DNA from: Bacteroidota bacterium | GTDB lineage: Bacteria > Bacteroidota > Bacteroidia > Flavobacteriales > Flavobacteriaceae | Reading direction: 5' to 3' | DNA length: 64,000 bases | Assembly (NCBI GenBank): GCA_029557895.1 | Contig: JAKQHT010000012.1 | Location: 1 to 64,000, forward strand | In this document: positions 37,234 to 48,074 of the stretch, in pieces | Position numbering within the stretch: the stretch's first letter is position 1 | How the letters are laid out: each line of letters opens with the position of its first letter | Notes under the pieces: model-generated | Seen by the model: only the letters and a program-made list of their open reading frames with translations | What the model was told of the DNA's origin: nothing | The model's database searches: none | Translations under genes and position numbers: made by a program

Positions 37234-38322
37234 TTGCAAATGAAGCAATGTGTATTTATAGCTACTTCTTTAAATGGAAGTTCAGTTTCTGATTATTTTC
37301 AGGCTTTGGCCAACAAATTTGACGATGAAGGCTATAAAGTTGTAATATTCACAAAAAAGCGAGACACAATAGATGGATTTAACAAAAACGTCGAAGTTTG
37401 CTTTTATGTTTCCAACCGTCCTACCGGTTTTAGCGATTTTAAGTTGGTATATGACAAAATTAAGATAGATAAGCCTATTTTAACCATTTCGTCTTTTGGA
37501 GCAGTAAACGTTTTTATCCTTGCAAGTTATCTGGCCAAAGTGCCAAACAGAGTTGCTTGGATCAGGACTTTGAGCACTCAATTTGGAAGGCAATCCAAAT
37601 TTTTGGTCTTTAGGAGAACATTAGTATATCGGTTGGCATCCATAATAACGGTCAATTCAAACGCTACAAAAGAGGATGTTAGTTCGTTTTTTAAAATCAA
37701 CAAAAAAAAGATAACGGTCTTGCCAAACTCGGTAAATAATTATCATGACCATGGGGAAGGAGCTATTTATGAGAACAACAAAATTGTATTTGTCGGGAGA
37801 TTAGATCCATCTAAAGGGATAGACACCTTGATACGGGCCGTGAAATTGTTGGTTGACGAAGGAATCGAAGTGACGTTGGATATTATTGGTTCGGGAAAAC
37901 AAAAAGATGAATTGCAAGAATTGGTCGAAAAATTAAAGTTGAATGATGTTGTAATCTTTGAAGGCAATAAGCCTAAAGCGCATGTATTGAAGGCGTTAAA
38001 AAATGCACATTGCACTGTTGTGCCAAGTAGGTCTGAAGCGTTTGGTTATGTTGTTATTGAGGGCATGAGTGTAGGTACATGTGTCATAGGAGCCAATAAT
38101 ACAGGGATAAAAGAAACCATTATAGATAATGAAACCGGCTTGCTGTTTGAAACCGGCAACCACACCAACTTGGCAGAAAAACTGAAAATGGTTTTGTTAG
38201 ACAGTGATTTTAGAAACCAACTCGCAATAAATGGCCATCAAAGGTTTCTGGATTTTTATGAAACCAGCAAAGCCATACAGCGAGATTTTGATTTTTTCAA
38301 AAAGATAGCAAATGACGATTAG
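37234..38322 (+). CDS. glycosyltransferase family 4
   Basis: IVFVGRLDPSKGIDTLIRAVKLL; VPSRSEAFGYVVIEGMSVGTCVIGANNTGIKETI. Confidence 0.93.
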   Translation: MQMKQCVFIATSLNGSSVSDYFQALANKFDDEGYKVVIFTKKRDTIDGFNKNVEVCFYVSNRPTGFSDFKLVYDKIKIDKPILTISSFGAVNVFILASYLAKVPNRVAWIRTLSTQFGRQSKFLVFRRTLVYRLASIITVNSNATKEDVSSFFKINKKKITVLPNSVNNYHDHGEGAIYENNKIVFVGRLDPSKGIDTLIRAVKLLVDEGIEVTLDIIGSGKQKDELQELVEKLKLNDVVIFEGNKPKAHVLKALKNAHCTVVPSRSEAFGYVVIEGMSVGTCVIGANNTGIKETIIDNETGLLFETGNHTNLAEKLKMVLLDSDFRNQLAINGHQRFLDFYETSKAIQRDFDFFKKIANDD

Positions 38323-38653
38323 ATACATTATAGCAAAGTTCATTTGTAGATTTCTACCGCCAATTGTTGCGCAAACAGTCCGTAATATGCTCATTTCGTC
38401 TGTGGACGGTGAAATGTTAAACCGGGATTTTGTGAGAAAAAGCTTTACTAACTATTTGGAGTCGTTGGGGTATTTCTGCTTTTATATTGAAAAAATAGGC
38501 CTTGAGGAAGTGAAAATACACAATTTTGTCATAAAGCGCAGTAAGAATTGGGTTTGCATTCACAAAAAAGACATCCAAATTAAAAAAGCGTTAGACCGCA
38601 CCATCATGTTCAATGCTTTCAACCCTTTGCTGGGTCTTGATACAACATATTAG
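38312..38653 (+). pseudogene. small ORF, possibly an internally deleted FkbM-type methyltransferase
   Basis: 113 aa; N-terminal ICRFLPPIVAQTVRN...FVRKSFTN joined to YLESLGYFCFYIEKIGLEEVKI...KNWVCIHK, resembling FkbM N- and C-terminal ends without the Rossmann core. Motif memory only. Confidence 0.4.
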
Positions 38654-38670
38654 TTTTTTGAAATTATGCA

Positions 38671-39750
38671 ATGAAACAGCGCATCCTCATCATCTATAGC
38701 CATAACCAAGGCCTTTTGTCCGGTTTTTACCAAGAACTGTCCGGGATGCTTGCTGATGACGGGCATGCGGTTTTTAATTTTAGTATCAAGCAGAAGCGTG
38801 CCGATTTTGAAGTTTCGGGTGTCCAAGTGATTGTACGGCCCAAGCGTAACCTTTTGGACAATTACTTCCAAATATTCAAGGTCATACGGCAAACAAAACC
38901 CGATGTGGTAGTCTCAAACTTTGGTTATATCAACCCCGCGCTTTTGTGCGGAAAGCTCCTGGGAGTACCAAGGAACATCGCCTGGTTCCATACCGCATTT
39001 TCCCACTCCAAGCGCCATTGGTTCCATGTTTGGTTCAAAAAGCAATGTTTTAGACTGGCCGATGTGGTTATTACCAATTCTGAAACGTTGAACCGCGATA
39101 TGATACGATATTATGGGGTCAAACCCCAACAATTGTGCCCCATTCCGTTTTGGACCCATATCGATGCGCTAAAAGCCGGTGATGTTCCGTTGGGCCCTAT
39201 CCCACAGGATGTTTTAAAAATTGGTTGTCCCGGAAGGTTGGTCATCGATAAAAACCATGCTGTCGTTGTGGAAGCTTTAGCAAAAATCGACCAACAATAC
39301 CCGGCATGGCAAATGTACATTGCCGGTGACGGTCCTGACAGGTCCCAACTGCAAGAAAAAATAAGTGCCTCACATTTAGACCAAAAGGTAACATTTCTTG
39401 GTAATTTATCGGCAGAAGCCATGAAACGGTTTTACCAATCCATGGACCTTATTGTCTTGCCAAGTCTGCACGAAGCCTTTGGGTTGGTGTTCATTGAAGC
39501 CATCGCTCTTGACACACCGGTACTTGTATCAAAAGCTTTTGGGGCATTGGATTTTATTGACACAAAGCAGTTTGATGTCAGCGCTTTTGTTTTTGATCCT
39601 GAAGATTCCGATGCATTGGCTGCAAAACTGCTGCCTTATTTTTTGGGAAAAGGCTTGGATGCGGCCTATTTTAAATCGGTTTATTCCGGTACTTTTAGCA
39701 AATCACACATTTACTTAAAAATAAAACAGGCCATCATTGGATCATATTGA
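38671..39750 (+). CDS. glycosyltransferase family 4
   Basis: GCPGRLVIDKNHAVVVEALAKI; LPSLHEAFGLVFIEAIALDTPVLVSKAFG. Confidence 0.93.
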   Translation: MKQRILIIYSHNQGLLSGFYQELSGMLADDGHAVFNFSIKQKRADFEVSGVQVIVRPKRNLLDNYFQIFKVIRQTKPDVVVSNFGYINPALLCGKLLGVPRNIAWFHTAFSHSKRHWFHVWFKKQCFRLADVVITNSETLNRDMIRYYGVKPQQLCPIPFWTHIDALKAGDVPLGPIPQDVLKIGCPGRLVIDKNHAVVVEALAKIDQQYPAWQMYIAGDGPDRSQLQEKISASHLDQKVTFLGNLSAEAMKRFYQSMDLIVLPSLHEAFGLVFIEAIALDTPVLVSKAFGALDFIDTKQFDVSAFVFDPEDSDALAAKLLPYFLGKGLDAAYFKSVYSGTFSKSHIYLKIKQAIIGSY

Positions 39751-39883
39751 TTAGTTTTGCGGTCATAACTACCATAAATAAGCAGCATTTGCGACGTCAT
39801 AAACCCGAAACATATAGAGGTATTTCATTTTTTTGGTGTAGCAAAGGCATTGTTGCAACCTTACAACTTCCAATTCTTGCCTG

Positions 39884-41212
39884 ATGCCGTTTCAGTTTTT
39901 GTCATATTTACAGCCTACATCCTATTTTCGGAGATTAAAAAATTCGGGCAATTCGCAATATCCAAAGGTTGAGGCTCTGCCAAAAAAGGAGTTGTCCTAT
40001 CTGAAAGAGGATGCCTCTTATGAGCACCCCATGTCCGTAGCATACGATTTATCATGGCAAGCCGTACAGGGCGGTTATGTGGGCAATGCCGAAACATATC
40101 GTGAATTCCAAGCTTTGCCCGTCATTGACAATTATCGGTTTGCCCGAAAAAATTTTCACCCTGCTTGGGTTTTTTATGTATTGATGCTTCGTTTGGTAAG
40201 TTTGCACAACCCCGTAAAGGAGATAGGGTCGTGGTGGAATACCAGAAACGTGACCCGAAGCGGCATCAAACAAGTCCCGGATTTATATAAAGATTGGGAT
40301 GGGTACCAATCTGGCTTACTGACGCAAAGGCCATTGGTCAGTGTGGTCATCCCTACACTTAACCGTTATGGCTATTTAAAAGATGTTTTAAATGATTTTG
40401 AACTTCAGGATTATAAAAATTTTGAAGTCATTGTCGTGGACCAATCCGATGCATTTGATATTGGGTTTTATGATCAATTTGATCTAAATATCCATGTCAT
40501 CCAACAAAAAGAAAAAGCCCTGTGGCTGGCACGGAATATCGCTGTCAAACAAGCCAAAGGTACCTTGGTAGCCCTTTCGGAAGACGATGTGCGCATCCAA
40601 CCCGATTGGATTTCAAGCCATATCAGATGCCTCGATTATTTTGCTGCAGATGTTTCAGCGGGTGTGTTTTACCCAGAAGGAAAATCGATGCCGAAAGAGC
40701 GATCGTTTTTTGCGGTAGCTTCGCAATTTGCAACCGGCAATGCCATGTTGTACAAAGAGGTCTTTAAGAAAGTTGGGCTCTTTGACCGTCAATTTGAAAA
40801 ACAGCGTATGGGTGATGGCGAATTCGGGATGCGTATTTATTTGTCCGGTTTCAGGAGTGTTTCTAACCCTTATGCTTCCTGTGTGGATGTCAAGGCCGGG
40901 GTTGGAGGTTTGAGGGACATGGGAAGTTGGGATGCTTTCAGGCCGTCCAGCTTTTTTGCCCCACGTCCCATACCGAGCGTTATTTATTTTTACAGACGTT
41001 ATTTTGGTGACAAAGCCACAAGGCTGGCACTTTTAAAGACCGTTCCTATTTCTCTTTTTCCCTATCAATTGAAAAAAAACAGGCCTTTGTTGCTCGTTGC
41101 CGCATTGCTTTCCATCGTTATTTGTCCCATAATCTTGTTACAGGTGCTGGCTTCATGGCGATTGGCAAATAAAATGCTAAAGCAAGGACCGATTATTGAA
41201 ATTTTTGAATGA
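39884..41212 (+). CDS. glycosyltransferase family 2
   Basis: PLVSVVIPTLNRYGYLKDVLNDFELQDYKNFEVIVVDQSD; ALSEDDVRIQPDWI. Confidence 0.92.
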   Translation: MPFQFLSYLQPTSYFRRLKNSGNSQYPKVEALPKKELSYLKEDASYEHPMSVAYDLSWQAVQGGYVGNAETYREFQALPVIDNYRFARKNFHPAWVFYVLMLRLVSLHNPVKEIGSWWNTRNVTRSGIKQVPDLYKDWDGYQSGLLTQRPLVSVVIPTLNRYGYLKDVLNDFELQDYKNFEVIVVDQSDAFDIGFYDQFDLNIHVIQQKEKALWLARNIAVKQAKGTLVALSEDDVRIQPDWISSHIRCLDYFAADVSAGVFYPEGKSMPKERSFFAVASQFATGNAMLYKEVFKKVGLFDRQFEKQRMGDGEFGMRIYLSGFRSVSNPYASCVDVKAGVGGLRDMGSWDAFRPSSFFAPRPIPSVIYFYRRYFGDKATRLALLKTVPISLFPYQLKKNRPLLLVAALLSIVICPIILLQVLASWRLANKMLKQGPIIEIFE

Positions 41213-42333
41213 ATGCCAAGCTTAAACATATTATGATTGTAACCTCCGAATTTCCCCCATTGCCGGGCGGTATCGGCACCCATGCATACCAGTTGGCATT
41301 ACATTTGTCCCGGAAAGGCTATCGGGTATCGGTTGTTGCAGACCAAAGGGCAAAGCAGGTAGAAGACGAACGTGACTTTGACCGTAACCTGCCATTTGAG
41401 GTCAGACGTGTCCGGATACGCAATTTTAGGCCCATCATGTACCTCAACCGTATTTGTCTTGTTTTTCAGAACCTTCGCCACACCAGCCATGTGATTGCTA
41501 CGGGTAAGTTCTCTCTTTGGAACGTTGCCCTCTGCACACTGATTTTCAAACGCCCTTCACTTGCCGTCATCCATGGTACCGAAGTAAACTATAAGACGCC
41601 ATTGTTGCGTCGCTCCATCGCTATGGCATTGCGCCGATTTTCGGCCGTTGTTGCCGTTTCACATTATACCAAAGGCCTGATAGCACATCTGAACCTTCCC
41701 GTAGCGGTCATCCCCAACGGCATCGACCTTGACGGTTGGGTACGGCCAAAATCATCAAAGAAGCCATTGGCGGGTTCACCGGTACTTACTACGGTAGGAC
41801 GGGTAAGTGCCCGAAAGGGGCAGCTTCAGGTCATAAAGCTATTACCACATTTATTGAGCCGTTTTCCGGAACTGCACTATCATTGCGTAGGCATTATGGG
41901 CGAAGCAGCCGAATTTATCAAGATTGCAGAGAAACTTGGTGTGGCATCCCGAGTGACGTTTCATGGAAGTGTTGCGCATGACACGCTGCTTGATTTTCTG
42001 GCACAGACCGATGTTTTTGTGATGATGAGCGTGGAAAGCACTACGGGTGATGTTGAAGGTTTTGGCATTGCCATTCTTGAGGCCAATGCGATGGGCGTTC
42101 CCGCTATCGGTGCGACTGGCTGCGGAATTGAAGATGCCATTAAACAAGGAACATCCGGTTTTTTGGTTCCCAACGGGGATGGCAAGGCTTTTGGGGATGC
42201 TTTAGAACATATTTTGAATGCCAAAGACACATTTTCTGATAGTGCCAGGCAATGGGCCGCTGCCCACGACTGGAACGTAGTGGTGGAACAATATTTGGAG
42301 TTGCTTGAGAAAACAGGAAGTGGTTTAAGTTGA
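41209..42333 (+). CDS. glycosyltransferase family 4
   Basis: IVTSEFPPLPGGIGTHAYQLALHLS; TVGRVSARKGQLQVIKLLP; EGFGIAILEANAMGVPAIGATGCGIEDAI. Confidence 0.94.
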   Translation: MNAKLKHIMIVTSEFPPLPGGIGTHAYQLALHLSRKGYRVSVVADQRAKQVEDERDFDRNLPFEVRRVRIRNFRPIMYLNRICLVFQNLRHTSHVIATGKFSLWNVALCTLIFKRPSLAVIHGTEVNYKTPLLRRSIAMALRRFSAVVAVSHYTKGLIAHLNLPVAVIPNGIDLDGWVRPKSSKKPLAGSPVLTTVGRVSARKGQLQVIKLLPHLLSRFPELHYHCVGIMGEAAEFIKIAEKLGVASRVTFHGSVAHDTLLDFLAQTDVFVMMSVESTTGDVEGFGIAILEANAMGVPAIGATGCGIEDAIKQGTSGFLVPNGDGKAFGDALEHILNAKDTFSDSARQWAAAHDWNVVVEQYLELLEKTGSGLS

Positions 42334-42713
42334 AGTGTTAAACGGGTCTTCGACAAGCTCAGACAGACAAGCTCAGACAGACAAGTTAAGGTTCTTAAAC
42401 GGTTCAAAATTAAAGACCAAACTCTGTCCCACTGAGCCTGTCGAAGTGCTTTCGAAGTGTTTACGAATCGCAAAACAAAACTCTGTCACACTGAGCCTGT
42501 CGAAGTGCTTTCGAAGTGTTTACGAATCGCAAAACAAAACCCTGTCCCACTGAGCCTGTCGAAGTGCAATCGAAGTGTAATCAATAATTGAACGGGTCTT
42601 CGACAAGCTCAGACTGACAAGTACAGGTTCTTAAAAGGTTCAAAATTAAAGACCAAACTTTGTCCCGCTGAGCCTGTCGAAGCGGAACCAAAGCACTTTA
42701 AAATTAAGGAACA

Positions 42714-43037
42714 ATGAAGTACTATTACGTTTATATCGTAAAATGCAGTGACAATTCCTACTATACAGGATTTACAAACGATTTGGATAGAAGGATCAAT
42801 GAGCATAATGCAGGTTACAACAAAGAGTCTTACACCTATCCAAGGCGACCGGTAGAGTTGAAATGGTATGAAATGTTCACCGACCCAAGCCAAGCGATCA
42901 TAGTGGAAAAGCAAATAAAGGGGTGGAGCAGGCGCAAAAAAGAAGCCTTGATTTGTGAAGATTGGGATCGATTGGTGTCGTATTCCAAAAATTATACTGA
43001 AAATGGTAAGGATGGGTCTTCGACAAGTTCAGATTGA
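42714..43037 (+). CDS. GIY-YIG nuclease family protein embedded in repeat array
   Basis: MKYYYVYIVKCSDNSYYTGFTNDLDRRINEHN...PRRPVELKWYEMFTDPSQAIIVEKQIKGWSRRKKEALI: GIY-YIG core (YVYIVKC...YYTGFT). C-terminal GSSTSSD* is encoded by a repeat arm. Confidence 0.93.
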   Translation: MKYYYVYIVKCSDNSYYTGFTNDLDRRINEHNAGYNKESYTYPRRPVELKWYEMFTDPSQAIIVEKQIKGWSRRKKEALICEDWDRLVSYSKNYTENGKDGSSTSSD

Positions 43038-43399
43038 CAAGTTAAGGTTCTTAAACGGTTCAAAATTAAAGACCAAACTTTGTCACACTGAGCCTGTCGA
43101 AGTGCTTTCGAAGTGCAATCAATATTGAACGGGTCTTCGACAAGCTCAGACTGACAAGTTCATACTGACAAGTTAAAGTTCTTGGACTGATCGTAATTAA
43201 AAACCAAACTTTGTCCCGATTAAAAACCAAACTTTGTCCCGCTGAGCCTGTCGAAGTGCTTTCGAAGTGTAATCGTCTTCGACAAGCTCATACTGACAAG
43301 TTCAGACTGACAAGTACAGGTTCTTAAACGGTTCTAAATTATAGTCCAAACTTTGTCCCGTTGAGCCTGTCGAAGTGCTTTCGAAGTGTAATCGTCTTC

Positions 43400-43455
43400 G
43401 ACAAGCTCAGACTGACAAGCTCAGACTGACAAGCTCAAACTGACAAGCTCAGACT
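43400..43455. repeat. 14-bp tandem repeat (GACAAGCTCAGACT x4) within the last repeat arm
   Basis: GACAAGCTCAGACT at 43400, 43414 and 43442 with GACAAGCTCAAACT at 43428. Confidence 0.93.
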
Positions 43456-43655
43456 GACAAGTTAAGGTTCTTAAACGGTTCAAAATTAATGACCAAACTC
43501 TGTCCCGCTGAGCCTGTCGAAGCGGAGCCAAAACAGTTCAGATTTTTGTTGACTTCCCTGGCTCTGTTAAAAAAACAAATGCTTTCCCCAAAAATTATGG
43601 ATACAAACGCCATAATCTTTTAAGGAAGCTTATCTTTGGCAATAAACGACAGCTT

Positions 43656-44786
43656 TTGAAATTAGTCATTATATCACATACTGAGCATTATAGGTTGGAG
43701 GACGATACCATAGTTGGGCTCGCATCAACAATCATGGAAATCAACCATCTGCTGGATGTTTTTGACGAAATCTCTCACGTTGCCATGCTTCATCAGGGGC
43801 CAATACCTTCTAACGTAATCCCTTATAGTTCCGAACGTATTCGGTTTATTGCCCTTCCACCTCTTGGAGGGACAAAGTTTAAAGATAAATTGGGAGTTGT
43901 TTTGAAAGCTCCGAGCGTAGTGAATATCATAAATTCGGCACTTAAAGATGCTGATTACTTTCAGTTTCGCGCCCCGACCGGGATAGGTGTTTATGTGATA
44001 CCCTACCTTGTGTTTTTTTGCAAGATTCCAGGATGGTTCAAATATGCGGGCAATTGGAAACAGGAACACGCTCCAATTGCGTACAGGATCCAAAAATGGT
44101 TGTTGGAACACCAGAATCGGTATGTGACCATTAACGGTAAGTGGCAAGACCAAAAACATCATTGCTTGAGTTTTGAAAATCCTTGCCTGACCAATGACGA
44201 ACTTTCGGACGGAGCAATTTGCGCTTCCCAAAAAACATTTGATGGTATCATTGACTTCTGTTATGTAGGTCGCCTCGAACCGGCCAAAGGCCTTGATTTG
44301 GTTTTGGATGCGTTGGGACTGTTGGATATGGATTCAAAACATCGGATTGGAACCGTACACATTGTTGGAGGTGGGACCAAAACCCAATATTATAAAGATG
44401 TTGCTGCAACATTGGATTTGGACATTGTGTTCCACGGACTGTTGATCAGGGATGAAGTACACGGAATTTACAAAAAATGCCATGCCATCCTACTGCCATC
44501 GGCATCGGAAGGATTCCCAAAGGTCATTGCAGAGGCCATGAACTACGGATGCCTGCCAATTGTAAGCGATGTGTCTTCAATAGGGCAATATGTACAGGAT
44601 GGGGTGAACGGTTTTTTGATTAAAGCACTGGAAGCTAATTGCTTGAAAAATTGTATCATGGATTTTTTACAACAACCTGAAGAAATTTTGGAGCGTATGG
44701 CCGATCGAAATTCGGAAATAGTGGAGAAATTCAGTTATGACAAATACAATATCAAATTGAGAAGTGTTATTTTAAAAAATGCTTAA
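43656..44786 (+). CDS. glycosyltransferase family 4
   Basis: TTG start; CYVGRLEPAKGLDLVLDALGLL; LPSASEGFPKVIAEAMNYGCLPIVSDVSSIGQYV. Confidence 0.92.
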   Translation: MKLVIISHTEHYRLEDDTIVGLASTIMEINHLLDVFDEISHVAMLHQGPIPSNVIPYSSERIRFIALPPLGGTKFKDKLGVVLKAPSVVNIINSALKDADYFQFRAPTGIGVYVIPYLVFFCKIPGWFKYAGNWKQEHAPIAYRIQKWLLEHQNRYVTINGKWQDQKHHCLSFENPCLTNDELSDGAICASQKTFDGIIDFCYVGRLEPAKGLDLVLDALGLLDMDSKHRIGTVHIVGGGTKTQYYKDVAATLDLDIVFHGLLIRDEVHGIYKKCHAILLPSASEGFPKVIAEAMNYGCLPIVSDVSSIGQYVQDGVNGFLIKALEANCLKNCIMDFLQQPEEILERMADRNSEIVEKFSYDKYNIKLRSVILKNA

Positions 44787-44811
44787 ATCAATTTGATTAT
44801 TCGTTTATCTT

Positions 44812-45666
44812 ATGAAAAATATTATATTTTTAACCCAAAATAAGACACCACGTAGCGGAATGCTAATAAAAAAACTCCAAAAAATAATCAAGCGCCACCC
44901 TTTGCTATATTTGACCAGATTCCGTCTGCTTTCACAAAATTCAAGCATTGACGAAATTGCCGGATTGTATTATAACCAATGGAACAAAAAGAAACATATA
45001 CCGGGTTATTTTTTTGAAATCAACCAACGTATTTTTGCGGAAGGTTTGCCGGAAAACGATATGGATAAAGTGCTCAAAATCAGTATTTGGTTAAAAGAAC
45101 ACATCAAAGGTGGTCGTGGATTAAGTGAGCCTTCTGAAAAAGCACTAAAGAACATGCTGTACGGCAAAGGGGGCGTGTGTAGTGATATGGCGCAGATTTT
45201 TAATAATTTTTGCGTGATCAATGACATAAAGGTCAGGGAATGGGGCACAACGACCATCCCATTTGACCGACTCCATGGTGGGCATGCATTTAACGAGGTT
45301 TATATCAAGGAATTGGATAAATGGCTGCTCATCGATGTCTATTGGGGCTTAATGTTTCATAGATCCGATGACGACTTCCCCTTATCGGTAATAGAGTTAT
45401 ATACCTTAAAGCGTAATAATGGACTTTATCACTACAAATCGTATCTTCATCAAGAAGTTGATGCGTCCATATTGGAAAGGAATTATTTGAACACTTCTAT
45501 AGCGCCCTTTTTGATATATAACTATAAGAACAAGGTTTATGATACATTTTTGGAATATACCCGTCCGTTAGTTCCGATTTTTGTGATTCATTTTTTTGTT
45601 TATTTGATCGGTCAAAACTACCGCTACAAATTCCCTTTGGATGATTATAAGCAATTGTTTGCTTAA
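44812..45666 (+). CDS. transglutaminase-like domain protein
   Basis: Candidate Cys-His-Asp triad GKGGVCSDMAQIF / HGGHAFNEVYI / WLLIDVYWG. Confidence 0.72.
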   Translation: MKNIIFLTQNKTPRSGMLIKKLQKIIKRHPLLYLTRFRLLSQNSSIDEIAGLYYNQWNKKKHIPGYFFEINQRIFAEGLPENDMDKVLKISIWLKEHIKGGRGLSEPSEKALKNMLYGKGGVCSDMAQIFNNFCVINDIKVREWGTTTIPFDRLHGGHAFNEVYIKELDKWLLIDVYWGLMFHRSDDDFPLSVIELYTLKRNNGLYHYKSYLHQEVDASILERNYLNTSIAPFLIYNYKNKVYDTFLEYTRPLVPIFVIHFFVYLIGQNYRYKFPLDDYKQLFA

Positions 45667-45751
45667 TGTTTTTGATTTTATGCCTTTAATTTATTGAAAA
45701 TTGCATTACCATAGGTCAATATTGCAAAGAGTTGATACCAGAATATCCAAT

Positions 45752-47101
45752 ATGAGTTATTTTGGACAGATAGCATTGCATATACTTATAGGGATACTTA
45801 TATATTTGAACGAAGGGCTGGCCAAGATCTATTTTTTTGTAATTCTCGGCTATTTTCTGTACAGAATCACTTTGTCAAGTCATGATAATTCCAAAACCTA
45901 TGAAGTGCTCAAGGCTTGCGCCTATTTTGTGGGTGCCGAGGTTTTTTTAAGGACTGCTCGGGGAGCGATTTCTTATGAAGCTGTCAAGTACATAGTGATG
46001 CTCTTTATGCTTATTGGGATGCTGTACAAAGGGCTTTCGGGAAGAGGCTACCCTTATTTTATCTATATGATGCTTTTGGTTCCTTCTATTTTTGTGGCCT
46101 CAACGACCTTGAGTTTTGATGCCAACTTCAGGACCAACATTGCTTTTGTGTTGAGTGGCCCGATATGTCTGGGTATCGCCGCATTGTTTTGTTATGATAA
46201 GCGGGTTACTTTTGGACAAATGTCAAACATTCTCTATCTGATGGTCTTGCCGATCGTTTCACATGTCGTATATATTTTTTTTTACAACCCGAGTGTCAAG
46301 GAAGTCATTAGCACTGTAGCATCAAACAGGACTGCGTCTGGAGGGTGGGGGGCCAACCAAGTGTCCGCTGTTTTGGGCCTGGGAATGCTGATCATGGTCA
46401 TACGGTTGTTTACAAGCTCACCGAGCAATAGGCTTAAATTGGTTAATGCATTGATTTTGGTTGCCATGTCTTATCGAGCTTTGGTAACTTTTAGTCGTGG
46501 TGGTGTGATTACCGCCTTAATAACCATAGTGGTTTTTTTGGTTTTCTTTTATATACGTTCATCAGAGACAAAAAGGAATGAAATTCTTGGTGTCTTTATT
46601 TTTATATGTGTCAGTTTTTCAATTACATGGATGGTAAGTGTAAATCAGACTAGTGGACTCATTAACCTCCGTTATGAAAACAAAGATAGTTTGGGGCGCG
46701 AAAAAAGCGATTTTACCACCGGTCGCGGGGAATTGTTCAAGAAGGAATTGGATGGATTTATTGGGAATCCTTTTCTTGGCATAGGCTCCAGTAGGGCCAA
46801 AGATCAACGGATAGAAGAGGAAGGACAAGGGGTGACATCACACAGTGAAGTCAGTCGTACTTTGGCAGAGCATGGTATCTTTGGGGTGCTTATTTTATTG
46901 ATATTGATTTTTAAACCTTTGAGTGTCCGTTATTACAATAGAGAAAACTACTATTTTTATCCTTTTTTGTTTTTTTGGTTTCTTACCATCAACCATATGT
47001 CGATGCGCTTGGCCATGCCAGCCTTTATCTATGCTTTAGCCCTTTTAAGAGTTGTCAATGATCCAGTTATTATATATCGGAAACAGATTGCGCCAAGGTA
47101 G
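45752..47101 (+). CDS. O-antigen ligase/polymerase-like (Wzy-type) membrane protein
   Basis: ORF opens at 45701 (TTG); ATG at 45752. About 10 TM; VTSHSEVSRTLAEHGIFGVLILLILIF and GRGELFKKELDGFIGNPFLGIGSS motifs. Confidence 0.83.
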   Translation: MSYFGQIALHILIGILIYLNEGLAKIYFFVILGYFLYRITLSSHDNSKTYEVLKACAYFVGAEVFLRTARGAISYEAVKYIVMLFMLIGMLYKGLSGRGYPYFIYMMLLVPSIFVASTTLSFDANFRTNIAFVLSGPICLGIAALFCYDKRVTFGQMSNILYLMVLPIVSHVVYIFFYNPSVKEVISTVASNRTASGGWGANQVSAVLGLGMLIMVIRLFTSSPSNRLKLVNALILVAMSYRALVTFSRGGVITALITIVVFLVFFYIRSSETKRNEILGVFIFICVSFSITWMVSVNQTSGLINLRYENKDSLGREKSDFTTGRGELFKKELDGFIGNPFLGIGSSRAKDQRIEEEGQGVTSHSEVSRTLAEHGIFGVLILLILIFKPLSVRYYNRENYYFYPFLFFWFLTINHMSMRLAMPAFIYALALLRVVNDPVIIYRKQIAPR

Positions 47102-48074
47102 GGCCAACGTGTCTGCCATTGATGCTTTAGGCCCTTTGTTAGAAAACGAAGGGTATGGGGTATATTATGCATCAACTAAAAACAACAAATTAGTGCGGAT
47201 GTTCGATATGCTTATGGCTGTCATCCGTTATGGCCATAAAGTGGATGCGGTACTGATAGATACTTACAGTACACTGAATTTTTACTATGCGCTATCGGTC
47301 AGCCAAATCTGCCGTATGTTAAACATCCCGTATATCCCCATATTGCACGGAGGTCATTTGGAACGCCGTCTGAAACACAACCCCAAGATGAGCCAATTGG
47401 TTTTTGGGCATTCCAGGGCTAACGTGGCTCCTTCGGGCTATATCAAGACGGTCTTTGAACGGTACGGTTACAATGAGTTAAAGTTTATTCCAAACGCCAT
47501 TCAGATTGATCGCTATCCGATTCTCCAAAAAGAATATACAGACATCCGCCTTTTATGGGTGCGTTCCTTTTCTGAAATCTATAATCCATGTATGGCCGTA
47601 CGTGTCCTTAAAACTTTAAGCGACCAAGGCTTTTTGGCACGTCTGTGTATGGTGGGGCCGGATAGTGATGGTTCGCTTAAAAAAGTGAAAATGCTTGCCG
47701 ATGCTCTGGAAGTTGAGGTAGAATTTACCGGAAAGCTATCCAAACAGGAATGGATCCAACTCTCTGAACAGTACAACTTCTTTATCAATACCACGACAGT
47801 TGACAATATGCCTGTAAGCGTAATGGAAGCCATGGCTTTGGGATTTCCTGTGATCTCTACCGATGTAGGCGGAATGCCCTATCTTATTGAAAACAAAGAA
47901 AACGGGCTTTTGGTGCCAAACAATGCTGTTGATGCCATGGCAAAGGCTGTCACGATGTTGTATGGGGACGAAGTTTTAAGGAACAAAATCATCAACGGTG
48001 CCCGCAAAAAAGCAGAACAGCTTGACTGGGGCATGGTAAAACAGGCTTGGCACGACGTCTTGAAAGGGTTGTAG
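47052..48074 (+). CDS. glycosyltransferase family 4
   Basis: LLWVRSFSEIYNPCMAVRVLKTL; NTTTVDNMPVSVMEAMALGFPVISTDVGGMPYLIE; overlaps the polymerase gene. Confidence 0.91.
   Translation: MSMIQLLYIGNRLRQGRANVSAIDALGPLLENEGYGVYYASTKNNKLVRMFDMLMAVIRYGHKVDAVLIDTYSTLNFYYALSVSQICRMLNIPYIPILHGGHLERRLKHNPKMSQLVFGHSRANVAPSGYIKTVFERYGYNELKFIPNAIQIDRYPILQKEYTDIRLLWVRSFSEIYNPCMAVRVLKTLSDQGFLARLCMVGPDSDGSLKKVKMLADALEVEVEFTGKLSKQEWIQLSEQYNFFINTTTVDNMPVSVMEAMALGFPVISTDVGGMPYLIENKENGLLVPNNAVDAMAKAVTMLYGDEVLRNKIINGARKKAEQLDWGMVKQAWHDVLKGL

Follow-up and report, generated by a model that had tools for sequence, protein, structure and literature searches.

Is the small GIY-YIG nuclease gene that lies in a palindrome array of this flavobacterial contig a partner of the repeats around it, and could it be the enzyme that moves them? 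A sequence-only reading of the window (the whole 64,000-nucleotide stretch analyzed here) had described six inverted palindrome pairs and two half units, with a 107-aa GIY-YIG gene between two of the units, and had proposed the nuclease as their mobilizing enzyme, in analogy to RAYT/REPIN systems and on an unrelated fold. Our analysis indicates that the locus is probably an autonomous copy of a nuclease–REP partnership, in which the nuclease would spread the tagged hairpins together with its own gene.

The layout was confirmed exactly. The motif CTTCGACARGCTCAG (≤2 mismatches) occurs 14 times within 42348–43522, where 0.1 copies are expected in shuffled sequences, and no copy was found in the rest of the 64-kb window. 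The gene starts 31 nt past the preceding arm, not 32 nt as first read, while its stop codon does lie inside the next hairpin, and the final residues of the nuclease are encoded by the following repeat arm. The features of the locus, with the evidence in brackets, are:

42348–42446, 42598–42682, 43018–43102, 43135–43256, 43277–43375 and 43396–43522: paired units 1 to 6 (motif bounds)
42491–42505 and 42550–42564: half units (motif bounds)
42346–42369, reverse strand: TGTC-tagged hairpin, type A, left arm of unit 1 (motif and structure scan)
42425–42448, forward strand: TGTC-tagged hairpin, type A, right arm of unit 1 (motif and structure scan)
42484–42507, forward strand: TGTC-tagged hairpin, half unit (motif and structure scan)
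42543–42566, forward strand: TGTC-tagged hairpin, half unit (motif and structure scan)
42596–42619, reverse strand: TGTC-tagged hairpin, left arm of unit 2 (motif and structure scan)
42661–42685, forward strand: TGTC-tagged hairpin, right arm of unit 2, bordering the gene upstream with its tag facing away from it (motif and structure scan)
42714–43037, forward strand: GIY-YIG nuclease gene, 107 aa, UPF0213-like (open reading frame, Pfam PF01541, PDB relatives 1zg2 and 1ywl, AF2 model)
42990–42992, forward strand: codon for N93, the residue that tracks specificity, in the nuclease gene
43035–43037, forward strand: nuclease stop codon, in the hairpin that begins with the arm at 43018
43016–43039, reverse strand: TGTC-tagged hairpin of degenerate form with a GAAC core, left arm of unit 3, bordering the gene downstream and holding the stop codon (motif and sequence)
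43081–43104, forward strand: TGTC-tagged hairpin, right arm of unit 3 (motif and structure scan)
43133–43156, reverse strand: TGTC-tagged hairpin, left arm of unit 4 (motif and structure scan)
43235–43258, forward strand: TGTC-tagged hairpin with imperfect stem, right arm of unit 4 (motif and sequence)
43275–43298, reverse strand: TGTC-tagged hairpin with imperfect stem, left arm of unit 5 (motif and sequence)
43354–43377, forward strand: TGTC-tagged hairpin with imperfect stem, right arm of unit 5 (motif and sequence)
43394–43417, reverse strand: TGTC-tagged hairpin, left arm of unit 6 (motif and structure scan)
43501–43525, forward strand: TGTC-tagged hairpin, right arm of unit 6 (motif and structure scan)

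The array is surrounded by glycosyltransferase-like genes (window positions 37234–48074), a neighborhood that resembles a surface polysaccharide cluster.

The encoded protein matches Pfam PF01541 (GIY-YIG; E = 8e-20), and searches of NCBIfam and PHROGs assigned it to no family. Across 60 homologues, Y7, Y17 and E65 are invariant and R27 is kept in at least 90%, so the catalytic Tyr, Arg and Glu of GIY-YIG enzymes are present. The nearest structures, by sequence and by Foldseek, are UPF0213 proteins (1zg2, E = 1e-14; 1ywl) and Slx1, which share both the fold and sequence likeness with the window nuclease. Slx1 acts on branched DNA and requires Slx4; to our knowledge, no repeat partner is known for it or for the UPF0213/GIY-YIG proteins. 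In the AF2 model (pLDDT 89.6) the last predicted helix spans residues 84–92, and residue 93 follows directly on its C-terminal side.

The repeats share a common plan: an unpaired TGTC(A) tag is followed by one strand of a 4-bp stem, by GAG, by either a loop or a longer hairpin, and then by CGA and the complementary stem strand. They fall into three types: A with a two-base YT loop, C with a GNA loop and B with the apical hairpin TATCGAGA. Nearest-neighbor DNA energies predict a good fold for the whole unit (z = −3.6) and no stability for single 25-nt hairpins, so covariation was used as the test of the stem and provides all of the support for the single hairpin. Among 136 type A and 122 type C hairpins, gathered without demanding pairing, stem pairs 3 and 4 were Watson–Crick in 86–96% of cases versus 26–40% with shuffled partners, and all four pair types were common; the fifth pair was at or near chance, and the tag was conserved. 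Covariation of pairs 3 and 4 argues that the hairpin is under selection and that its outer stem is 4 bp long. One possible drawing of the inner core has G.A pairs in tandem, then a G-C pair, a T bulge and, around the GNA or two-base loop, a closing C-G pair. Rfam gave only sub-threshold matches.

Searched with the strict motif alone, the flanks of only 5 of the 30 best homologues carry CTTCGACARGCTCAG; 27 of the 30, however, have some repeat common to both flanks, each in its own variant. The weak look of the association is thus a product of the strict motif, and with repeat variants counted the association is strong. Our structure scanner identified 52 sites in 834 kb (0–3 with five altered-core versions) and showed 27 of 35 close homologues (77%) to have a tagged hairpin on each side, compared to 6 of 2031 control windows (0.3%) and 3 of 57 distant GIY-YIG genes. 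The expectation that GIY-YIG relatives are flanked by the palindromes therefore held for these family loci, and it held again in 78% of 86 independent loci with full flanks versus 0.17% of controls, figures to be read against the fact that control windows are mostly coding and the repeats intergenic. This second set was drawn mostly from named Bacteroidota genomes, with additions from Ignavibacteriota, Nitrospirota, Nitrospinota, Chloroflexota and sphingomonads. In many bacteria, nucleases related to this one are enclosed by a version of the repeat that matches, so the hairpins and the nuclease appear to spread jointly, and we propose that they do so as one selfish unit.

Copy counts in this genome and its relatives, which the sequence-only reading had suggested, gave 22 exact copies of the motif in four clusters of the window's own genome (assembly 85% complete; 0 for a reversed-pattern control) and exact copies in 34 of 100 genomes of the same family (reversed pattern in two genomes). 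The repeats are thus not restricted to the nuclease locus, and neither of the outcomes named beforehand as speaking against a partnership, repeats found only here or homologues lacking the association, is what we observed. A GIY-YIG homologue was present in 31 of 34 motif-bearing genomes versus 34 of 67 others (p = 5e-5). Outside the nuclease locus, genomes carry more copies of the type that matches their resident nuclease (p = 8e-4 for A, 4e-3 for B and 9e-7 for C), with some off-diagonal correlations also significant and repeat-rich genomes being rich in several types. Presence of the repeat and of the nuclease is not strictly coupled, since two genomes (G098 and G081) hold 18–31 type C copies with no close nuclease detected and a third (G085) holds as many with a distant nuclease only; we assume gene loss in such cases. 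One of these three genomes belongs to the window's own genus.

Repeats in the window's own genome also occur in other settings. A tandem array of 11 tagged hairpins with no nuclease lies beside a tilS-like gene (L026, contig C11, 2176–2867), with 9 of the 11 in one orientation at a spacing of ~50 bp and a duplicated segment of ~384 bp. Two methylmalonyl-CoA mutase-like genes contain in-frame repeat copies (L025, 161–2302, and L027, 154–3501; contigs C1 and C22), which add short peptides such as SVILSLSKDN.

Comparison of host sites revealed both presence or absence of the cassette and its wholesale exchange. The site upstream of fabF is occupied at G349, L161 and L180, and in most relatives, including the congener G526, the genes abut or overlap. 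Downstream of fabF, the occupied loci are G534, L163 and L166; in the congener G362 this site has a different tagged repeat pair with no nuclease. The minimal cassette (L180) is a hairpin, the gene and an inverted hairpin, with the tags outermost. At one host site with the same flanking genes, Seonamhaeicola sediminis and Hyunsoonleella aestuarii (L190 and L214) contain a C cassette and Seonamhaeicola aphaedonensis (L219) a B cassette instead, indicating that gene and repeat type were switched together. Some loci have tandem duplicates of gene plus array, and some nuclease copies have internal stops. No target-site duplication was definable at the cassette sites.

Enzyme and repeat are matched as cognates. 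Types A, B and C follow the nuclease tree, with 18 type changes on the larger tree, and residue 93 tracks the repeat type, so the suggested co-variation of arm variants with nuclease phylogeny proved positive. N at this position goes with type A at 29 of 29 loci, K with B at 39 of 41 and C with C at 46 of 46, or 114 of the 116 typed loci with N, K or C; this relationship is correlational. An independent-pair test restricted to starred branches found too few of them to reach significance, and pairs were therefore taken from the best tree, a less stringent approach. Of 15 edge-disjoint pairs whose members differ in type, 11 have the expected residue at position 93 in both members and 0 are reversed, with 5 for the next-best column, on a tree built without the C-terminal columns from 85 columns and with many weak forks.

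The proposed system has two parts. Its non-coding part is the TGTC(A) tag, the variable 4-bp stem, the conserved GAG...CGA core and the small loop, arranged in inverted pairs that are scattered and tandemly amplified. Its coding part is a UPF0213-type GIY-YIG nuclease that stands alone and is encoded between two inverted hairpins. The nuclease would use its C-terminal region, residue 93 included, to bind its own hairpin in single-stranded DNA (on the lagging strand, or in DNA from transformation) and would nick near the TGTCA tag; host replication or repair would then copy the repeat and the gene into new intergenic sites. GIY-YIG chemistry is hydrolytic, so such spread would be of the cut-and-repair (homing-like) kind, unlike RAYT transposition, which proceeds via a covalent intermediate. 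With the association general and the co-variation positive, there is good support for the proposed RAYT/REPIN analogy built on an unrelated nuclease fold, and mobilization by the nuclease has only indirect support, from copies in trans, empty sites and cassette swaps.

The same single-domain enzyme with many dispersed repeats would also suit a nuclease that moves nothing, the pair instead cutting single-stranded DNA that enters or is exposed in the cell and the repeats serving as marks used by the host; an enzyme of the same fold in Neisseria reportedly acts on a repeat and modulates transformation. We regard this as unlikely, because selfish spread accounts better for cassettes that some congeners have and others lack and that are exchanged as gene–repeat pairs, for tandem duplicates with their arrays and for copies interrupted by internal stops. 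Another account takes the gene as a homing-type parasite of pre-existing palindromes that something else moves, leaving nothing between the two but an insertion preference. Its position between hairpins and the genomes with repeats and no close nuclease agree with this. However, repeat type outside the locus follows the type of the resident nuclease, and no PF01797 match, that is, no RAYT-type (Y1) transposase, was detected in the window's genome (85% complete). Minimal cassettes with one inverted hairpin per end, at sites empty elsewhere, further suggest that the hairpins arrive together with the gene, making the parasite account improbable.

A passive association would require that repeats and small nuclease genes simply collect in the same variable intergenic regions, and both do lie in such places, here within a glycosyltransferase cluster. 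We rejected this explanation as very nearly incredible: it is contradicted by the control windows (6 of 2031; 0.17%), by enrichments of >200-fold that were replicated independently, and by the matching of type to residue 93 and the tag-specific controls. Spread of tagged hairpins and gene by the nuclease is our preferred reading.

Among known systems, RAYT/REPIN pairs GTAG-tagged REPs with the TnpA-REP Y1 transposase (PMC3116915, PMC2817692, PMC8266576). In both systems, inverted palindromes flank a single gene, non-coding inverted pairs are dispersed, and cognate variants occur. The enzyme, however, is HUH/Y1 there and has a GIY-YIG fold here, the tag is GTAG there and TGTC/CGTC here, and the present system differs further in having several nuclease copies and types per genome. 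On our best reading it works like RAYT/REPIN yet lacks two of its defining features, the enzyme fold and the tag, and is not a member.

Di Nocera et al. (2013, PMC3733652) split REPs into two groups, those tagged GTAG, which are the partners of RAYTs, and those tagged CGTC/TGTC, which 'apparently lack a dedicated transposase'. The latter have an unpaired tag at one end, a stem-loop with a stem of 8–9 bp and a loop of 4–5, inverted dimers and many copies, and Bacteroidetes are among their phyla (PMC3733652). Our repeats likewise have a stem-loop with the unpaired CGTC/TGTC tag on one side, inverted dimers and multiple copies, although the ~20 copies of the window's genome are modest; in place of the 8–9-bp stem, the close type has four canonical pairs and a non-canonical GA/GC...C-GA inner core, and a nuclease gene lies consistently inside the repeats. 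Distant GIY-YIG subfamilies are flanked by classical long-stem YGTCAT palindromes such as CGTCATTCCTGCGAAGGCAGGAAT (both sides, 12 of 53 versus 3 of 640; p = 4e-12). As a tentative generalization, the entire CGTC/TGTC-tagged REP superfamily may have its dedicated mobility enzymes in stand-alone GIY-YIG nucleases, making a second nuclease–REP system that is independent of RAYT/REPIN and parallel to it, with cognate recognition largely via one C-terminal residue (N, K or C) reading the hairpin apex. CGTC-tagged REPs have been without an enzyme since 2013, and this 'orphan' class of palindromic repeats may now gain its missing one, for which we offer a candidate, a general anatomy and a one-residue specificity hypothesis. 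If so, unrelated nuclease folds have domesticated or exploited bacterial palindromic repeats on at least two occasions; the presence of GIY-YIG genes in repeat clusters across Bacteroidota and several other phyla would be explained; and a large set of hairpin-specific nucleases would become available for study.

Repeats of other kinds accompany distant GIY-YIG genes as well, with 54% having repeats common to both flanks versus 1.9% of controls. A second, distant GIY-YIG gene in the window's own genome (L028, G000:C18, 1672–1953) has on its flanks both CCCGATAGCTATCGGGA palindromes and a direct repeat of 55 bp that includes a terminator and the 3' part of a tRNA-Asn gene; another GIY-YIG subfamily may use tRNA ends. 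Other long direct repeats, of 27–77 bp, bracket distant GIY-YIG genes at L115, L119, L121, L125, L146 and other loci, some of them tRNA-like (L119) or terminator-like.

A limited literature search found no paper linking GIY-YIG enzymes with REPs. The closest known system is Ssn, and such GIY-YIG/repeat pairs lower the claim of novelty. The sequence-only reading had considered neither these pairs nor the CGTC/TGTC-tagged superfamily. A 2025 study is said to describe GIY-YIG site-specific single-stranded DNA nucleases, among them the N. meningitidis Ssn with its NTS repeat, which was reportedly proposed to act in transformation, and to report thousands of homologues with their own cognate sequences. 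By that description, both systems combine a single-domain GIY-YIG enzyme with a multi-copy genomic repeat, whereas the present one is centered on Bacteroidota, its repeat forms inverted hairpins that bear a TGTCA tag and a conserved inner core, its gene is bracketed as a cassette and one residue is proposed to track the repeat type.
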